This document shows, in pieces, positions 5,755 to 12,878 of a DNA stretch of 42,179 nt. Under the pieces are notes generated by a model. The model was not told the DNA's origin and searched no databases. It saw nothing but the letters and a program-made list of their open reading frames with translations. The DNA comes from an uncultured Erysipelotrichaceae bacterium (lineage in GTDB: Bacteria > Bacillota_I > Bacilli_A > RFN20 > CAG-826). Location of the stretch: NCBI GenBank assembly GCA_900314585.1, contig OMVV01000006.1:1-42179 (forward strand). The letters are read 5' to 3'. Within the stretch, counting starts at the first letter, position 1; every line of letters starts with the position of its first letter. A program made the translations under genes and the position numbers.

Positions 5755-7488
5755 TCAATGTTGTTTTTCGTATTTTACAAATTTTTTAATTATATAATTA
5801 TTATTCAAAATAATATTCATTGTAACGTCCGCTTGGGAAACCGTTTTGTCTATTTCATCAATTTTTAGAATATCCATATTGTTTTTGTATTTTCGCTTTT
5901 CGGTTGATACCAAAAAGAAGGTGTGTCTTAAATCGTTCTTTTCTTTTAGTTTAGCAAAAACACTATATGCGATTTCACCTCGCCCGCTATCACGATCTAT
6001 TCTTTGATCTAGCATATTAAAAAATAAGTCAATCGATAAAACCAGATAATTTCTCAAGCGATAAAACTGTAACGATTTGAAAGCGCTCAATTTGCTTTCG
6101 TGGACATATTCGTTTCTCAACATATATATTCTAGTAATATCGATTGATACTCTTTGCTCAATTGCATCATAATACTTTTTGAGATTGCTTATTGTTTGTA
6201 CTTTATTTTTTGCTTTTAAAAGCTCTCTTTTGTAAAACAAAGATTTTGCATTTTGAGCAAGTTTCTCAACTTCACAAAATGGCTTTTCGACAAAATCTTC
6301 AGCCAGCATTTCCTTTCTTCCAAATGCATTCTTAAGGATAAATGTCAGTTTATTGATAATAATTTTCGACGAGATAAAAGATGGTAATAACATTTTAACT
6401 GCTTTATACCCAGATGTTGTCTCGTTTAATGAATATAATGACTCTAAAGCGATCCAAGAATCGACATACGAAGAAGAATTGATCGAATCGTTATTTTTTT
6501 CAGAATAGCCAATTATATTTAATATTTTATGATATAAATTTCTATCTAACTCATAAAGTTTGTTCAAATTATTAATACTATTATTCATAAACTTGGCATA
6601 CGGATTAACTCCTTTATACTTATTTATTTCGGAAAACGGCAAATAAACCTCTTTAATCTTTAAAAGATGCTTGCAGCCAATATCAATCAAAATATTTTCT
6701 TCAAAATCGTAATCGATTTCAGAGCGTGTGTAGAGTTTTATTGTGTTGAAGATTGAATCTATTCGAATCATGTGCGACGTTATTACACGGTAGTAATCAA
6801 TCGAACCGTTTTCATAAATGTGAAGATAATGAATTCCTTTGTTCGAAATAATTTCTTGATTATTCTGCTTAAAAACATCTTTGTTTATTGACTTATAATT
6901 CTTTACTGGAAGATATATGTCGTAAGAAATGGTGATTCTACTAACGAAAAATTCTAGAAACGACTCAAATGTTTTGAAATTACCGCTTTCGTACCATTCT
7001 ATAGTTTTATGAATAAACCTAATATCTATATCACGAGCTAGACACTCATTTAAAAACAGCTCTATCAAAACATCTAAATATTCGTAATCCAGTATAGTTG
7101 ATTGACTCAAAGCTGATAATTCGTCCTTTATTTTATGAAAATATTTATGCGCCAGTTGGCCACGTAAATGCACCAAAGTTGTAATGGTGTCTTTTTTATC
7201 GAATGATTTTCCTTCAGACATCTCTTTTAAAAGTAGCAATAATTGAGAGAAAGATAATGAGTCTATGCTTTTGAGTATCTTGTCATTTTCTAAAAATTTA
7301 TAAAACCACTTAGACAGTTCCAAAACATAATTGTTTTTGATATTTTCCTCAAGCTGATTCTCTAAAGCGATTTTTAATTCATTAATACAATATGTAAAGC
7401 AATCGTTACTAGGCATACAAAAATAACAACCTTCTATGTCTGTATCACATCGCAGTTTTGTAAAAAAATACTGTTCGAATTCTGTCAT
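5755..7488 (-). CDS. HEPN-domain protein with Cys-rich N-terminus (putative RNase/defence)
   Basis: 577 residues, soluble. The C-terminal third has DSWIALESLY (about 343-352) and RNEYVHES with R458-x4-H463, the catalytic pattern of HEPN ribonucleases; the layout resembles the Apea-type HEPN group found in defence contexts. The N-terminus carries clustered cysteines (C14, C21, C24, C30, C34), which might bind a metal. The middle is unrecognised. The start is fixed by AAGGAGG nine bases before the ATG. The gene follows a DNA glycosylase by 48 bases on the same strand and may be cotranscribed. HEPN call is moderate to good; RNA cleavage and antiphage action are inferred. Confidence 0.7.
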   Translation of the reverse strand: MTEFEQYFFTKLRCDTDIEGCYFCMPSNDCFTYCINELKIALENQLEENIKNNYVLELSKWFYKFLENDKILKSIDSLSFSQLLLLLKEMSEGKSFDKKDTITTLVHLRGQLAHKYFHKIKDELSALSQSTILDYEYLDVLIELFLNECLARDIDIRFIHKTIEWYESGNFKTFESFLEFFVSRITISYDIYLPVKNYKSINKDVFKQNNQEIISNKGIHYLHIYENGSIDYYRVITSHMIRIDSIFNTIKLYTRSEIDYDFEENILIDIGCKHLLKIKEVYLPFSEINKYKGVNPYAKFMNNSINNLNKLYELDRNLYHKILNIIGYSEKNNDSINSSSYVDSWIALESLYSLNETTSGYKAVKMLLPSFISSKIIINKLTFILKNAFGRKEMLAEDFVEKPFCEVEKLAQNAKSLFYKRELLKAKNKVQTISNLKKYYDAIEQRVSIDITRIYMLRNEYVHESKLSAFKSLQFYRLRNYLVLSIDLFFNMLDQRIDRDSGRGEIAYSVFAKLKEKNDLRHTFFLVSTEKRKYKNNMDILKIDEIDKTVSQADVTMNIILNNNYIIKKFVKYEKQH

Positions 7489-7536: not shown

Positions 7537-8118
7537 TTATTTTTGTTCAGAATAATTATATTCTAAAAGAGAATAGACTCTTTTTCTACTTTTGTTTGAG
7601 AGTTTATAAACAAGCATTGAGTCAATTTTAAAGAAAATCTTAATTAGAATTATATATTCATCCACTAAATCATCAACACTCATCTTCGCATTCGCTGGTG
7701 AGGTTGATGGAAGATATATAACCGGAATATTAACTTTATCTAAAAGATACTTATCAAAAAGTGATGCAGCTTTCTTACCAGTTATGCCAATCACTTTGAT
7801 GTTTGGATATCTTTTCAAAATGCGAACAATATCAACTGGAATAACATTCTTAATTGATGCGTCTTCACTGCTATGAATATCGCATTCCTCCACCACATCA
7901 TATAAAGCGATCTTATGTTTGATTAAAAACTGTTTTCTTTCTTCTATTGAAGAAGGGGCGGGTTCATCAAATAACTTCGCTAAGACAGGAAAGAAACGAT
8001 TTTGTTTATGCGAATAATAAAAACCATATTCCCTAGACTTAATACTTGGAAATGAACCGAGAATCAATATCTTTGAATCATCATGAATGAATATTTCTAA
8101 TTGATGAGTTAAATGCAT
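7537..8118 (-). CDS. Hypoxanthine (deoxyinosine)-DNA glycosylase, UDG superfamily
   Basis: About 193 residues from the ATG at 8118. This small enzyme family removes deaminated bases such as hypoxanthine from DNA, starting base-excision repair. The sequence has ILILGSFPSIKSREYGFYYS and KQNRFFPVLAKLF near the N-terminus and LPSTSPANA near the C-terminus, matching the UDG-family motifs of this group. A longer frame from a TTG at 8157 exists, but it would read through a terminator-like hairpin (8128-8147), so the ATG is preferred although its Shine-Dalgarno is poor. It lies between the tRNA cluster and the HEPN gene. Family is firm; preferred base is from family knowledge. Confidence 0.85.
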   Translation of the reverse strand: MHLTHQLEIFIHDDSKILILGSFPSIKSREYGFYYSHKQNRFFPVLAKLFDEPAPSSIEERKQFLIKHKIALYDVVEECDIHSSEDASIKNVIPVDIVRILKRYPNIKVIGITGKKAASLFDKYLLDKVNIPVIYLPSTSPANAKMSVDDLVDEYIILIKIFFKIDSMLVYKLSNKSRKRVYSLLEYNYSEQK

Positions 8119-8127
8119 AAGTTTTAT

Positions 8128-8147
8128 AAAAGCATCCCTAAGGATGC
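8128..8147 (-). terminator. Short intrinsic terminator after the tRNA cluster
   Basis: On the minus strand GCATCC-TTAG-GGATGC (six-base-pair stem) is followed by TTTTAT. It sits between tRNA-Leu and the glycosylase ATG at 8118, so it could end tRNA transcription or attenuate the glycosylase gene. Confidence 0.5.
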
Positions 8148-8179
8148 GATCTATCAAGAATGGGGGAAATTCAACAAAC

Positions 8180-8683: not shown

Positions 8684-9076
8684 TTAACGTTTGGAGAATT
8701 GTGGTGCGCGACGAGCAGCTTTAAGACCGTATTTCTTACGTTCTTTAGCGCGGCTATCACGTTTGACAAGACCATTTGCCTTTAAGACATGACGGTCTTC
8801 ACCGGCTTCAAGAAGAGCACGGGCAATACCTAAACGGATTGCACCAGCTTGTCCTGAGAAGCCACCACCTTTTACAAAGGCTTCCACATCATATTTTGAT
8901 GCGCTAGCGGTAACTTCGAGTGGTTGAGATAAATCCATAACAAGGGTTGCATAAGGCATATAATCCTTAACATCTCTACCGTTAACGGTAATTTTACCTT
9001 TACCAGCAGTGACATAGACACGAGCGATAGATGATTTACGTCTACCAGTACCGTAATATTTTTTTACTTCTGCCAT
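8684..9076 (-). CDS. rpsI: 30S ribosomal protein S9
   Basis: 130 residues from the ATG at 9076. S9 sits in the head of the 30S subunit, and its C-terminal tail reaches the P-site tRNA. The protein begins [20 protein letters not shown] and ends with the basic [16 protein letters not shown] tail, including the universal SKR terminus. The start is set by AGGAG eight bases upstream; a longer frame to 9100 lacks support. It follows rplM by 11 bases, the universal L13-S9 operon. Confidence 0.98.
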
Positions 9077-9087
9077 AGCTAATCTCC

Positions 9088-9531
9088 TTATTTCTTCCAC
9101 ACGAGAACTTCAGGTTTCTGAGCTTCGTGTTTATGTTCTGATCCACGATAGACGAAGAGTTTCTTTATCATTTGGCGACCTAAAGGTCCCTTTGGTAACA
9201 TACCCCAGACTGAACGTGTGACCATTTCTTCCGGATAGTTTTCAATCATTTCACCAGCAGTTCTGGTGCGAAGACCACCGTTATAGCCGGAAACATTGTA
9301 ATATTTCTTATTTTTAAGCTTATTAGCACCAGAAAGAGCAACTTTTTCCGCGTTAATGATAATGATGAAGTCACCACAATCGACATTTGGAGTGTAGATT
9401 GGTTTATCCTTACCCATTAACTTAACTGCGACAAATGAGGCTAATCTTCCGTATGGGATGTTTGTAGCATCAATGACATACCATTTACGAACGATTTTTT
9501 CTGGTTTTGCGATCGTTGTTTGACGTTGCAT
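9088..9531 (-). CDS. rplM: 50S ribosomal protein L13
   Basis: 147 residues, typical length. L13 is an early-assembly 50S protein. It shows [40 protein letters not shown] and [20 protein letters not shown], all hallmark L13 segments. AAGGAGG lies eight bases before the ATG. It is first in the rplM-rpsI operon behind a near-consensus promoter and a structured-looking leader. In most Bacilli truA lies immediately upstream; here yebC and an AbiE pair intervene. Confidence 0.98.
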
Positions 9532-9590
9532 TTTGTTTCCTCCTTACTCAAGCAATAATCTTACCGGGACTATTTCTTTTTCATTGTGCG
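9532..9590 (-). ncRNA. Candidate L13 leader (5' UTR of rplM)
   Basis: The ~58-base leader predicted from the promoter contains GCACAATGAAAA and AGTCCCGGTAAG before the Shine-Dalgarno. A ribosomal-protein leader (L13 leader, an Rfam family) occurs at this position in many Firmicutes. The position and sequence style fit, but no covariance test was possible. Confidence 0.4.
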
Positions 9591-9596
9591 AGATAG

Positions 9597-9625
9597 ATTA
9601 TATCTATATTAACTTGCTAAGTCAA
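9597..9625 (-). promoter_or_regulatory. Near-consensus promoter of rplM-rpsI
   Basis: TTGACT (9620-9625), a 17-base spacer and TATAAT (9597-9602) form a near-ideal sigma-A promoter, as expected for a ribosomal operon. Confidence 0.88.
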
Positions 9626-9691
9626 AACAAATTTCAAACAAGAAATTTAAAAGGCAAAAATAATGTTTTGTTTTTCAAATAGAAGTGAAAA

Positions 9692-10597
9692 TCAAAGATT
9701 ATTATCTTTAAGGAACGAAGCAATCTTTAATATAGATGGGACACATTCATCATATTTGATGTGATCATATAAAAGAGGGAAAGTTCTCAAATTATAGTCT
9801 GATAAATATGTTTTCTCTTCGATGAGTTCATTTAACAGAGTTGATAACGACTTTTCTCCTAACACTGAATAACATGTTTCAAGAGTAACCCGATATTCTT
9901 TAACTTTATAAAATAAATCTAACAAATCTTTGTTAAGTTCAACTTGTTTTAATAACTGATGTAGATCATAGATGTGTCTTGATTGTCGGTCTAACTTTCG
10001 TGAGATATGGTAATCACAAATTGCAAAGACTTTGTCCACGAGAGTTCTTTCTTTAGTGATTGTCTTGGTCACAAATGGTTCAAGCTGATATTTTTCCACT
10101 AAATCAAGACGGCCTATCTTTGATAGATATTTACCGATGATCGTTTGGGCGCTTTTTTCTTCAACAGGAAAAGCAGGTGTTTGGGTGGCCCACTCCACAA
10201 TGACAAAGTTTGAAGAATTATTCCAACTTGATTGATATGGACATATATAACGGTTGAACACTCTGCGACTTCTAATGTTTTCAGCGTTTTGAACTGATAG
10301 TGATGCAGCCGCTATTGAATCAAAGAAATCTTGTTTGATTTGGCGACGTTGACCAACCGTAATATGTTCAAGAGCATATGAAATATCAATATCTTCAGAA
10401 AAACGATTTATGATTCGTTGGCAAACACTTAAAGAGGTGCCGCCTTTAAAAACAAAGTTTGGATTTCTGCTAATCAATTCTCTTAGAATTGTCAAAGCAT
10501 AAAAATCTTTTTCGATATATGCTTCATTTATTTCGGTTTGGTCAGCAATAGTTCTAATGATATCGTTGAACAATTGTTTATCATCCGATAAGAGCAT
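9692..10597 (-). CDS. AbiEii/AbiGii-type nucleotidyltransferase toxin
   Basis: 301 residues. AbiEii toxins are polymerase-beta-like nucleotidyltransferases that act on RNA (some modify tRNA acceptor ends) to stop growth upon phage infection. The sequence has FKGGTSLSVCQ (G52-S55) and FSEDIDISY (S67-D71), the GG[TS]-x-SEDID active-site signature of the family, plus a later conserved K-T-I-T-K-E-R-T segment. A GGGGGT element nine bases before the ATG supports the start. It overlaps the antitoxin gene by 17 bases, giving translational coupling. Active-site residues appear intact. The target RNA is unknown. Confidence 0.92.
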   Translation of the reverse strand: MLLSDDKQLFNDIIRTIADQTEINEAYIEKDFYALTILRELISRNPNFVFKGGTSLSVCQRIINRFSEDIDISYALEHITVGQRRQIKQDFFDSIAAASLSVQNAENIRSRRVFNRYICPYQSSWNNSSNFVIVEWATQTPAFPVEEKSAQTIIGKYLSKIGRLDLVEKYQLEPFVTKTITKERTLVDKVFAICDYHISRKLDRQSRHIYDLHQLLKQVELNKDLLDLFYKVKEYRVTLETCYSVLGEKSLSTLLNELIEEKTYLSDYNLRTFPLLYDHIKYDECVPSILKIASFLKDNNL

Positions 10598-11219
10598 CTA
10601 AAATACCCCCTTCCACTACTTTCTTAATGGTTTTAGGGCCATAGTATTTAATATATTTTGTGAATGAGGCGTCTGATATTCCGTTCTTTTTCGCATAATC
10701 AACGATTATGTCTTTCTTTTCTTTTACTTCATCAAGAGATAAGAAATGAAACATATCAAAGAATTGAAGATCCTTCCAATTAGTAAAATCAATAGGGATT
10801 CGACCTTTGCGAATAATCGCCATAGAATTGCCAGAAACGAAATATCTTTTCTTAGAACTTGTTTTATTCGTAGTAATTTCAGGCATCGCTGGAACTTGTT
10901 CAGATAAACCAATCATATTTAAGAAGGTCATTCCAGAGTAATAGCCATCAATAAAAAGTTCTCTTGTTTCTGAAGAAATGCAATCTGGATACATAAACTT
11001 GTTTTCAACAATTTTTCTAAAGGTAATGCCACTACCAAAATCTTTGTTACTTTTAAGATAGTAGATACCGCTGGACTTTCTTTCTAAATCACCACGCTTA
11101 GTCGCACGATAAAACTCTTCCCTAATCGCAGTCTTAGATTTACGACCAATTCGTACATCTTTTATGAAGATAGGGGTGTCATAACCATAGATATTAGATA
11201 AATACGATACGATATCCAT
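10581..11219 (-). CDS. AbiEi-type antitoxin / transcriptional autoregulator
   Basis: 212 residues from the ATG at 11219. The protein resembles the DUF6088/AbiEi group: an N-terminal winged-helix-like part (RKSKTAIREEFYRATKRGDL and the following ERKSSGIYYL) and a C-terminal antitoxin-like part. AbiEi neutralises AbiEii and represses its own promoter. An alternative TTG start at 11234 would lie within the -10 box, so it is rejected. A strong promoter places the transcript start at or next to the ATG. The pair lies between yebC and rplM, inside an otherwise conserved ribosomal neighbourhood. Confidence 0.85.
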   Translation of the reverse strand: MDIVSYLSNIYGYDTPIFIKDVRIGRKSKTAIREEFYRATKRGDLERKSSGIYYLKSNKDFGSGITFRKIVENKFMYPDCISSETRELFIDGYYSGMTFLNMIGLSEQVPAMPEITTNKTSSKKRYFVSGNSMAIIRKGRIPIDFTNWKDLQFFDMFHFLSLDEVKEKKDIIVDYAKKNGISDASFTKYIKYYGPKTIKKVVEGGILDALIG

Positions 11220-11225
11220 AACTAA

Positions 11226-11254
11226 AGTATACAAAAAGTGCTATCGTGAGTCAA
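11226..11254 (-). promoter_or_regulatory. Strong leaderless promoter of the AbiE pair
   Basis: TTGACT (11249-11254), a 17-base spacer and TATACT (11226-11231); the -10 ends six bases before the ATG at 11219, and no Shine-Dalgarno fits between them. Confidence 0.8.
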
Positions 11255-11273
11255 TTTTTATAATAAAAATATG

Positions 11274-11290
11274 TTATACCAAAGGTATAA
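11274..11290. promoter_or_regulatory. Inverted repeat upstream of abiE, possible operator
   Basis: TTATACC-AAA-GGTATAA is a perfect seven-base inverted repeat 20 bases upstream of the -35 box. AbiEi proteins bind inverted repeats in their own promoters, so this is a plausible operator, although it is farther upstream than usual. Confidence 0.4.
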
Positions 11291-11336
11291 TAATATAACA
11301 AATCAATATCATAACAACGTATTCTGAAAAATTGAA

Positions 11337-11360
11337 AAGAAAAAAGGAAGCATAGCTTCC
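11337..11360 (-). terminator. Intrinsic terminator of yebC
   Basis: GGAAGC-TAT-GCTTCC followed by TTTTTTCTTTTC on the minus strand, 23 bases past the yebC stop. Confidence 0.88.
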
Positions 11361-11383
11361 TCTTATCTAATTTATTAGTTTAA

Positions 11384-12088
11384 TTATAACTCAACGTTGT
11401 GAGCGACATTTTGAACGTCTTCAAGTTCATCAAGGGCATCCACTAAATCTTGGAACTTTTGTTTATCTTCATCCGAAAGGGTGACATATTCATTTGGTTC
11501 CATTCTAATTTCGGCTTCTTCAAACTCAGTGATGCCAAGTCCTGCGAGAACTTCTTTGGCTTTTTCAAATGCATCTGGAGCAACATAGACATAAATGGTG
11601 TCTTCATCGAGTTCAACTTCTTGAACATCAACATCACCTAAGATGAGGGCTTCTTCAACTTCATCACGGTTGGTGCCTTTAAAGGCAAGGATACCAAGCT
11701 GGGTGAAATTATAGATAACTGAACCAAGGTGTCCACCTTTACGAACGATTTGGGTGCGGACTTCCACTAAAGCGCGGTTTGGGTTATCAGTAAGGGTGTC
11801 AACAATTAACAAAGAATTACCTGGGCCAAAAGCTTCATATCTTCCTTCAACGTAAGCGACAGCATCGCCACCTTGAGCTTTCTTAATCGCACGATCAAAA
11901 ACATCTCTTGGAACAGATTTTCCACGATATTTTTCATAAACCGCTCTTAAAGCAAGGTTGGTCTTTGGATCTGGTGATCCTTGTTTCGCTGCCATATATG
12001 CTTCTTTAGAAGCACGAGCATATAAAGCTGATTTGATTTTGCCAGTGCGGGCCATCGCGGCCGCTCTAACTTCATGATGTCTACCCAT
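11384..12088 (-). CDS. YebC/PmpR-family protein (ribosome-associated factor/regulator)
   Basis: 234 residues, typical for YebC (TACO1-like) proteins, known first as transcriptional regulators and more recently linked to relief of ribosome stalling at proline runs. Family segments include ASKEAYMAAKQGSPDPKTNL, VPRDVFDRAIKKAQGGD, YEAFGPGNSLLIVDTLTDN and GGHLGSVIYNF. The C-terminus is acidic. AAGGAG precedes the ATG. It has its own promoter (12115-12143) and terminator, so it is a single-gene unit. Bacilli can have two paralogues (YrbC- and YeeI-like); which one this is cannot be settled here. Confidence 0.92.
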   Translation of the reverse strand: MGRHHEVRAAAMARTGKIKSALYARASKEAYMAAKQGSPDPKTNLALRAVYEKYRGKSVPRDVFDRAIKKAQGGDAVAYVEGRYEAFGPGNSLLIVDTLTDNPNRALVEVRTQIVRKGGHLGSVIYNFTQLGILAFKGTNRDEVEEALILGDVDVQEVELDEDTIYVYVAPDAFEKAKEVLAGLGITEFEEAEIRMEPNEYVTLSDEDKQKFQDLVDALDELEDVQNVAHNVEL

Positions 12089-12149: not shown

Positions 12150-12878
12150 TTAATAGGTCAGTTCCATTAAATATAGTCCACAAGCAGGAGCCTTATATGG
12201 AACGATTTTACGATGTGTTTCCACTAAATATATTTTTAGTTCCATAACCGACATTTTGCCTAAACCAATTTCAATTAGGCAACCAACAATCATCCTCATC
12301 ATATATCTCATAAAACCACTTCCGACGAAGCTGATGCGAATGACATCCCCTTCAGTGGTCAATGATGCTTCATATATCTTTCTAACATAGTTAGAATCAT
12401 CTTCGAGTTTCGAGGTAAAGTTTTTAAAACAATGCTCCCCCACTAACGCATCCAAAGCTTCTTTGATTTTGTTTAAATCTAACTTTCTTTGGAATTGATA
12501 GACAAGATCTCTTTCAAATGGATTATATTCACCAGTATTGATCAAATAGTCATATCTTTTTGACTTAACTGAGTATCTAGCGTGAAAGTCTTCTCTTTTT
12601 TCTACTATATTTATCACGCGCATGTCGCTCGGGAGAAGCGAGTTGACTGAATAAGTAAACTTATCTAAATCAAGTTTCTTAATCGTGTCGAAGTGAAATG
12701 TTTGTCCTAATGCGTGCACACCTGCATCTGTACGACCAGAGGCATAGACCTTTGTTGGGGTGTTCAAAATTCTTGATAACACCTTTTCTACTTCCGCTTG
12801 AATGGTGACTTCATCTTTTTGAATTTGCCATCCAGCGTAATTAGTGCCGACATATTCAATGATTGCTAAATATCTCAT
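12150..12878 (-). CDS. truA: tRNA pseudouridine(38-40) synthase TruA
   Basis: 242 residues. TruA converts U38-U40 in the anticodon arm of tRNAs to pseudouridine. The catalytic aspartate D51 lies in ASGRTDAGVHALGQ, and GSGFMRYMMRMIVGCLIEIG is the conserved C-terminal segment. The ATG overlaps the ecfT stop by four bases (ATGA), so translation is coupled. It is last in the long run that begins at 19667. Confidence 0.97.
   Translation of the reverse strand: MRYLAIIEYVGTNYAGWQIQKDEVTIQAEVEKVLSRILNTPTKVYASGRTDAGVHALGQTFHFDTIKKLDLDKFTYSVNSLLPSDMRVINIVEKREDFHARYSVKSKRYDYLINTGEYNPFERDLVYQFQRKLDLNKIKEALDALVGEHCFKNFTSKLEDDSNYVRKIYEASLTTEGDVIRISFVGSGFMRYMMRMIVGCLIEIGLGKMSVMELKIYLVETHRKIVPYKAPACGLYLMELTY

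Follow-up and report, generated by a model that had tools for sequence, protein, structure and literature searches.

The window analysed here is a 42,179-nucleotide stretch of contig OMVV01000006.1 (assembly GCA_900314585.1) from an uncultured Erysipelotrichaceae bacterium. On its minus strand it carries, in this order, truA, yebC, the antitoxin and toxin genes of an AbiE pair (AbiEi and AbiEii), rplM and rpsI, followed by four tRNA genes. The pair is flanked by a terminator-like hairpin of yebC (11364-11342) and by the rplM promoter (9625-9597). The features referred to below are as follows, in the direction of transcription, "the branch" being the group of related antitoxins described further on:

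12150..12878, minus strand: truA, an open reading frame and upstream core gene whose orthologue stands 5' of yebC in 28 of 29 resolved relatives.
11384..12088, minus strand: yebC (YebC/PmpR family; PF01709/PF20772, NF009044), the native gene between truA and rplM.
11342..11364, minus strand: intrinsic-terminator-like hairpin directly 3' of yebC (10 pairs and a T tail), left edge of the slot that holds the pair.
11285..11299, minus strand: direct repeat 1 of the predicted operator (GTTATATTATTATAC), taken from the branch alignment and weak in the window alone.
11274..11290, minus strand: perfect palindrome TTATACC-TTT-GGTATAA of the predicted operator, centred at about -63, at a matching place in most branch members.
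11250..11264, minus strand: second direct repeat of the predicted operator, which extends into the -35 box, taken from the branch alignment.
11249..11254, minus strand: -35 box TTGACT from the promoter scan, kept as TTGAC/TTTAC in the branch.
11226..11231, minus strand: -10 box TATACT, its last base 7 nt before the A of the ATG, from the promoter scan and branch conservation.
10581..11219, minus strand: AbiEi antitoxin, 212 aa, with a predicted leaderless ATG at 11219 (PADLOC AbiEi, 1.9e-46).
10606..10613, minus strand: Shine-Dalgarno-like GAAGGGGG for the toxin, within the antitoxin gene.
9692..10597, minus strand: AbiEii toxin, a predicted nucleotidyltransferase of 301 aa overlapping the antitoxin gene (PF08843).
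9597..9625, minus strand: rplM promoter TTGACT-17-TATAAT, which matches the consensus at 11 of 12 positions and marks the right edge of the slot.
9088..9531, minus strand: rplM (L13), found by the RplM search in 77 of 96 genomes.
8684..9100, minus strand: rpsI (S9), an open reading frame also present in the stretches of relatives.

The two genes are regarded as an AbiE pair by sequence and fold because of their family matches, their predicted structures and the intact motifs I and II of the toxin. AbiEii matches the Pfam model PF08843 at 1.7e-21 (77.7 bits against a cut-off of 22.5) and the PADLOC AbiEii model at 1.1e-69; its predicted structure (pLDDT 94) matches MenT3 and MenT4 with E values of 6e-6 to 4e-5, and its profile gave four matches among solved structures, the best being AbiGII 9hlo_B at 2e-9. 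For AbiEi, no Pfam or NCBIfam model matches, and no solved structure matched the antitoxin sequence profile at E up to 0.01. Its predicted structure (mean pLDDT 93) has as best PDB match the AbiEi of Streptococcus agalactiae, 6y8q (Z 7.5, 172 residues, rmsd 4.6), with a Foldseek E of only 1.3e-3 and a Z below 8 that the tool itself describes as middling; against 1zel (Rv2827c of Mycobacterium tuberculosis) the values were Z 6.7, 190 residues and rmsd 5.9, and both alignments cover nearly the whole protein. The PADLOC match and the model agree with the combination by which AbiEi proteins are recognised, an N-terminal winged helix and a C-terminal antitoxicity domain encoded directly 5' of the toxin. 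No viral relative of the antitoxin was confirmed by tblastn against viral_contigs.

A family-level search of 224 genomes revealed a branch of antitoxins 41-62% identical to that of the window, the nearest members reaching 62% for the antitoxin and 67% for the toxin. In a tree of 57 antitoxins, which does not include the orphan regulators discussed below, 18 form one side of a branch with a support of 99/100, within which five relatives belonging to two other genera cluster with the window pair (six rows, support 100/99); a second tree adds 14 orphans and omits L041 and many of the distant rows. The 18 branch loci are the window, L210-L225 and L033, and counts over them overstate independence because the members share ancestry, with L033, L223 and L225 being near copies.

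The preliminary description of this locus had pointed to a strong promoter with 17 bases between its boxes and to a leaderless antitoxin start. The boxes are as described (TTGACT at 11254-11249, a 17-nt spacer and TATACT at 11231-11226) and conservation indicates that they are real; "strong" does not hold for the window alone, where the promoter scan returned 12 sites against 12.9 in shuffled DNA. It is conservation in relatives that lifts both this promoter and the palindrome above chance. The ATG at 11219 falls where the +1 position is expected, 7 nt past the last base of the -10 box. The predicted leaderless start is likewise supported by the relatives, as the -10 spacing and the missing Shine-Dalgarno are kept in all 18 branch loci: the box lies 6 nt from the start in 16 of them, 7 nt in L218 and 8 nt in L224, the start codon is ATG in 16 and GTG in two, and no Shine-Dalgarno precedes any of the 18 starts. 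Leaderless genes have been defined in the literature by a -10 box whose first T lies about 12 bp before the start codon and by the lack of a Shine-Dalgarno (PMC3160421, as far as the available text shows). The window antitoxin has both properties, the first T of TATACT lying 12 nt before the A of the ATG, and this spacing is kept within 2 nt in 18/18 branch loci. An alternative TTG start at 11234 was rejected, as it lies inside the promoter (in the -10 region) and relatives align from the methionine at 11219. The leaderless start is a prediction from geometry.

This geometry is rare in the DNA of the family. Of the 461 ORFs of at least 150 aa in 557 kb of family DNA, it occurs in 25: the 17 branch antitoxins of that set, without exception, and only 8 of the remaining 444. 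A -10 box at 4-8 nt is absent from all 42 more distant AbiEi genes to which a start was assigned (antitoxins with E up to 1e-40), and a Shine-Dalgarno-like word is present in 35 of them; this count omits L102 (a duplicate of L033), L045 and L126 (truncated), leaves aside L116 and L127, whose starts could not be assigned, and includes L173, whose assigned TTG start is probably wrong. The less related L226 and L227 of the same family have ordinary leaders. L041, without a Shine-Dalgarno and with a -10-like box that stops 10 nt short of the start, was labelled leadered in the tree and may be misplaced.

An ordinary leader would require transcription to begin further upstream, for example at TTGTTA-16-TATTAT (11317-11290) or by read-through from yebC, with the 11254/11226 promoter being a chance match. 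Such an upstream site, matching 9 of 12 positions, does exist, promoter-like sites are no commoner here than in shuffled DNA, and the more distant AbiEi genes do have leaders. This explanation nevertheless appears improbable to us, given that the pair of boxes and its distance to the start are kept in 18/18 branch loci though their surroundings diverge, that no Shine-Dalgarno stands before the ATG and that a terminator-like hairpin separates yebC from the antitoxin gene.

The leaderless layout also extends beyond the branch. In the same GTDB family, 14 of 28 loci examined are orphan AbiEi-like genes with the -10 box exactly 6 nt before the start (L203, L204, L209, L281, L282, L284-L286, L288-L291, L293 and L294); no toxin was detected near these 14 genes, their common promoter is TTTTTACC...TATA(A/T)T, and in the tree that includes them they form a group of their own, apart from the pair branch. 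A strict promoter-to-ATG pattern gave 97 listed matches in 220 family genomes versus about 27 in the reversed control (summed by hand). Among 31 of these 97 that were inspected, 23 have an ORF of at least 60 aa, about 11 of which look by eye like XRE- or ArsR-type regulators. In this family the strict geometry marks many XRE-/ArsR-like regulators (L310, L311, L313, L317, L328, L330-L333, L335 and L336), and its two matches in the window's own genome are, by eye, an XRE-like and an ArsR-like gene.

Upstream of the promoter, the inverted repeat that had been noted at 11274-11290 is indeed perfect (TTATACC-AAA-GGTATAA in forward reading). In the branch alignment it belongs to a shared upstream layout, GTYAYA...TTATAC, GTATAA and then GTYAYAAAATTKAC running into the -35 box, the TTATACC/GGTATAA of the palindrome being the TTATAC/GTATAA part of this layout. 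The direct repeats are alike at p 0.002 to about 0.02 in L221, L223, L211, L225, L033 and L220; in the window the value is p 0.54, and in most branch members the direct repeat did not pass the shuffle test. Taken together, the repeats would constitute a conserved predicted operator for negative autoregulation by AbiEi.

Taken by itself, the palindrome could be a chance or unrelated site that AbiEi does not bind, and a palindrome as good arises in 10.7% of shuffled copies of the stretch (p 0.107, for the window alone). We think this unlikely in view of the branch: in 16/18 loci (near copies included) the best inverted repeat found in the stretch has its centre between -61 and -70, and the arms change together in several members, to ATATAC/GTATAT in L217 and L218, to TTATAG/CTATAA in L219 and to a 12-bp arm in L222, with variable spacers.

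In an alignment of 12 toxins, the motif I and II residues G52, G53, R65, D69 and D71 do not vary, and 15 residues separate G53 from D69, the same as in the published spacing. Compared with the published motif III, KLxAaxxR, K189 and A192 are present and the R position is occupied by Y196; the published motif IV, +DxxD, corresponds to RHIYD. Since Y196, H208 and D211 are also invariant in the 12 toxins, this deviation looks like a subfamily difference and not a loss. The activity of the toxin is not guaranteed, as V58 stands at a near-invariant position of motif I, next to the serine, where most relatives have K. In our own alignment this K would correspond to K79 beside S78 of MenT3 (residues from the available part of PMC11375011). 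V58 is not simple decay, because four relatives with open toxin frames have it too (L212, L214, L215 and L216), and may change regulation without abolishing enzyme activity.

Sites resembling the purine-rich Shine-Dalgarno of the toxin are found inside the end of the antitoxin gene, before the toxin start, in most branch members, and the two genes overlap by 14-20 nt wherever a toxin was found in the branch. In L213 and L225 the antitoxin and its upstream region are kept and no toxin was detected on the stretch fetched. In L225 (2477-3797, reverse-complement coordinates) an orphan antitoxin with the conserved upstream region is followed, by eye, by a transposase-like ORF in the place of the toxin.

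These two toxin-less loci, together with V58, could be taken to mean that the pair has been domesticated, AbiEi acting mainly as a repressor beside an inactive or weak toxin. We give this reading little weight: the reading frame of the toxin is uninterrupted, motifs I and II retain their invariant residues, and V58 is shared by four relatives whose toxin frames are open too.

The chromosomal site was surveyed by an RplM search in 96 near genomes, 77 of them positive, and stretches were fetched from 40 of these. Both yebC and rplM were on the stretch, yebC being upstream of rplM, in 29 of the 40, and truA too in 28 of these 29. The preliminary description had held that yebC, like the AbiE pair, interrupts the order of truA and rplM. 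For yebC this has to be abandoned: truA, yebC and rplM follow one another in that order in 28/29 readable relatives, so yebC is the family's normal neighbour and not an intruder, and its insertion was ruled out. For the AbiE pair, insertion is upheld: AbiE was found in 0/9 readable intervals of the genus (from 12 other members with rplM) and in 0/29 family-level intervals between yebC and rplM, the opposite of every relative carrying the same pair here, and an empty site, which the description had recommended seeking in sister genomes, exists in G012, where the interval is bare (198 bp).

The interval is unusually variable. The yebC-rplM gap is bare (140-202 bp) in 7/29 stretches and exceeds 400 bp, reaching up to 5560 bp, in the other 22, compared with gaps above 400 bp in 0/28 between ecfT and truA, 9/28 between truA and yebC and 0/40 between rplM and rpsI. 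The 22 filled intervals hold varied genes, other toxin-antitoxin modules included, as judged from ORFs above 60 aa with Pfam run on selected proteins: a HipA/HTH pair in G013, a PIN-domain and RelB pair in G014, DUF4160, DUF2442 and RelB-like genes in G044, an ATPase with DUF4143 in G036, a PCC-domain gene in five genus members by similar sequence (one of the five tested in Pfam), and, identified by eye, lipoproteins, transporters and other genes. In the 7 genus members whose junctions were inspected, a hairpin followed by a T run lies 3' of yebC (by eye) and a TTGACT-type promoter with a conserved leader lies 5' of rplM. Insertions would be tolerated in the slot because transcription of the core genes is shielded on either side. 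The window scan detected no terminator 3' of the toxin, so abiE transcripts may run into rplM.

The junctions themselves yielded neither a target-site duplication nor a mobile gene; a transposon or integrase was sought there and rejected, direct repeats in 9500-11450 being only weak two-copy matches. ARAGORN found no tRNA in the 16 fetched branch stretches. On the stretches fetched, truA, yebC, rplM and rpsI are absent from the vicinity of every other branch member, the neighbourhoods of these members are unrelated, and genomes G203 and G194 hold two copies each; scattered sites, double copies and toxin-less members fit horizontal movement. That the pair is instead ancestral at this site and was lost from the other genomes of the genus is highly improbable, for although its identities to the nearest relatives lie within the range of core proteins (in G044, 66% for YebC and 71% for RplM), AbiE is missing from all nine genus and 29 family intervals, the other branch members have unrelated neighbourhoods and two genomes carry double copies.

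Some observations concern the genes around the site. A DNA-deoxyinosine glycosylase-like gene lies at 7537-8157, near the AbiE pair, beside a 577-aa ORF (5755-7488) that has no Pfam, NCBIfam or PADLOC match. A glycosylase copy 66% identical to it stands directly 5' of the AbiE pair of the nearest relative (L212, G213), and a glycosylase match was obtained in only 7/24 genomes of the genus; the glycosylase-like gene and the pair may travel together. In the rplM leader (9531-9602, minus strand), a GTCCCGGTAAGA-like core is kept in most of 40 relatives inspected, and in 13 selected sequences paired changes occur at 4/5 predicted pairs of a short stem. A known RNA leader was rejected, there being no Rfam match at E up to 1 apart from one unrelated weak match on the opposite strand; the element may be an undescribed L13 leader.

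We consider it likely that this is a horizontally moving, autorepressed type IV AbiE pair in which the antitoxin mRNA is leaderless and the toxin is started from an internal Shine-Dalgarno. Horizontal transfer would have brought the pair into the chromosome, at a permissive site delimited by the terminator of yebC and the promoter of rplM. AbiEi, a winged-helix protein, would bind the predicted operator, which comprises a direct repeat, the palindrome and a second direct repeat over the -35 box, and would repress the promoter of its own gene. Transcription would start on the A of the antitoxin ATG, so that the mRNA has no leader before the antitoxin, and the toxin would be started on the same mRNA from the Shine-Dalgarno inside the antitoxin gene. 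By analogy with its MenT relatives, AbiEii probably adds nucleotides to tRNA and thereby stops translation, and AbiEi, as in the MenA and S. agalactiae systems, would both repress the operon and counter AbiEii. Toxicity, like any phage defence, is presumptive here.

Since leaderless starts use 70S ribosomes, antitoxin and toxin may be translated by different routes from one mRNA. Leaderless start codons have been described as being used by 70S ribosomes and as responding to initiation factors and to MazF cleavage (available part of PMC6431027). One could go further and regard the two modes of translation as a built-in safety setting of this AbiE branch, and the leaderless layout of other DNA-binding regulators as a general design for self-repressed genes, a speculation that we hold to be doubtful. 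Under it, the leaderless antitoxin would be started by 70S ribosomes without Shine-Dalgarno contact, and the toxin would need its Shine-Dalgarno; the antitoxin would be favoured when the anti-Shine-Dalgarno end is damaged or the initiation factors change, and the toxin during recovery or by the supply of 30S subunits.

The yebC-rplM slot clearly exemplifies a small landing place in the chromosome, delimited by a terminator and the promoter of a ribosomal-protein gene, where the toxin-antitoxin modules differ from one relative to the next. For AbiE, a defence and toxin-antitoxin family of wide occurrence, the control region that has been studied best possesses a leader and inverted operators; a whole branch with a predicted leaderless antitoxin, a Shine-Dalgarno-dependent toxin and a different operator would provide a testable case for the effect of translation mode on the antitoxin-to-toxin ratio.

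Leaderless genes as such have already been published for Firmicutes (56/209 genomes, 4.2% of genes; PMC3160421), streptococci (8.6-9% of genes; PMC6431027) and M. tuberculosis, where leaderless mRNAs predominate in toxin-antitoxin pairs (32/37 with a primary TSS; PMC3898074), as given in the accessible portions of these papers. M. tuberculosis is an actinobacterium with about a quarter of its genes leaderless (PMC3898074), unlike the AT-rich Bacillota-like lineage studied here, in which few ORFs have the geometry (8/444 outside the branch). No paper describing a leaderless AbiE antitoxin came up in the literature search, which consisted mostly of records without full texts; in the three texts naming both "leaderless" and "AbiEi", PMC7319586 among them, "leaderless" occurs in reference lists only.

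The closest point of reference is the AbiE system of S. agalactiae V/R 2603, as described in the available part of PMC3985639, with which the present pair shares an antitoxin-toxin bicistron with a short overlap, a promoter spacing of 17 bp, a winged-helix antitoxin and a polymerase-beta-type toxin. AbiEi autorepression is established there, the +1 position lies 26 bp upstream of the ATG with a ribosome-binding site, and the operator TGTTGCTTTTA-N27-TAAAAGCAACA consists of two inverted 23-bp sites on either side of the promoter, one overlapping the -35 box and one located after +1. The present locus differs from it in its predicted leaderless start, compared with the 26-bp leader and RBS, and in having two direct repeats and a palindrome, all upstream of or touching the -35 box, which agrees with the preliminary description of the operator as untypical. 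By eye, the S. agalactiae half-site TGTTGCTTTTATACC resembles GTTAC...TTATAC of the branch (PMC3985639).

The predicted AbiEii model is like MenT3 and MenT1 in fold and in motifs I and II, and unlike them in sequence, with identities as low as 10-16%. The ends of tRNAs are lengthened by MenT toxins. Phosphorylation of a toxin of this group at a serine of motif I is promoted by a MenA antitoxin (available part of PMC11375011). In the Rv2827c-Rv2826c pair (MenA4-MenT4) of M. tuberculosis, according to the available part of PMC7319586, autorepression by Rv2827c is established. That pair shares with the present one a COG5340-type antitoxin, self-repressing there and predicted to be so here, and several repeats extending upstream of the promoter; it differs in having four tandem 23-bp repeats arranged in two inverted pairs and a larger antitoxin.
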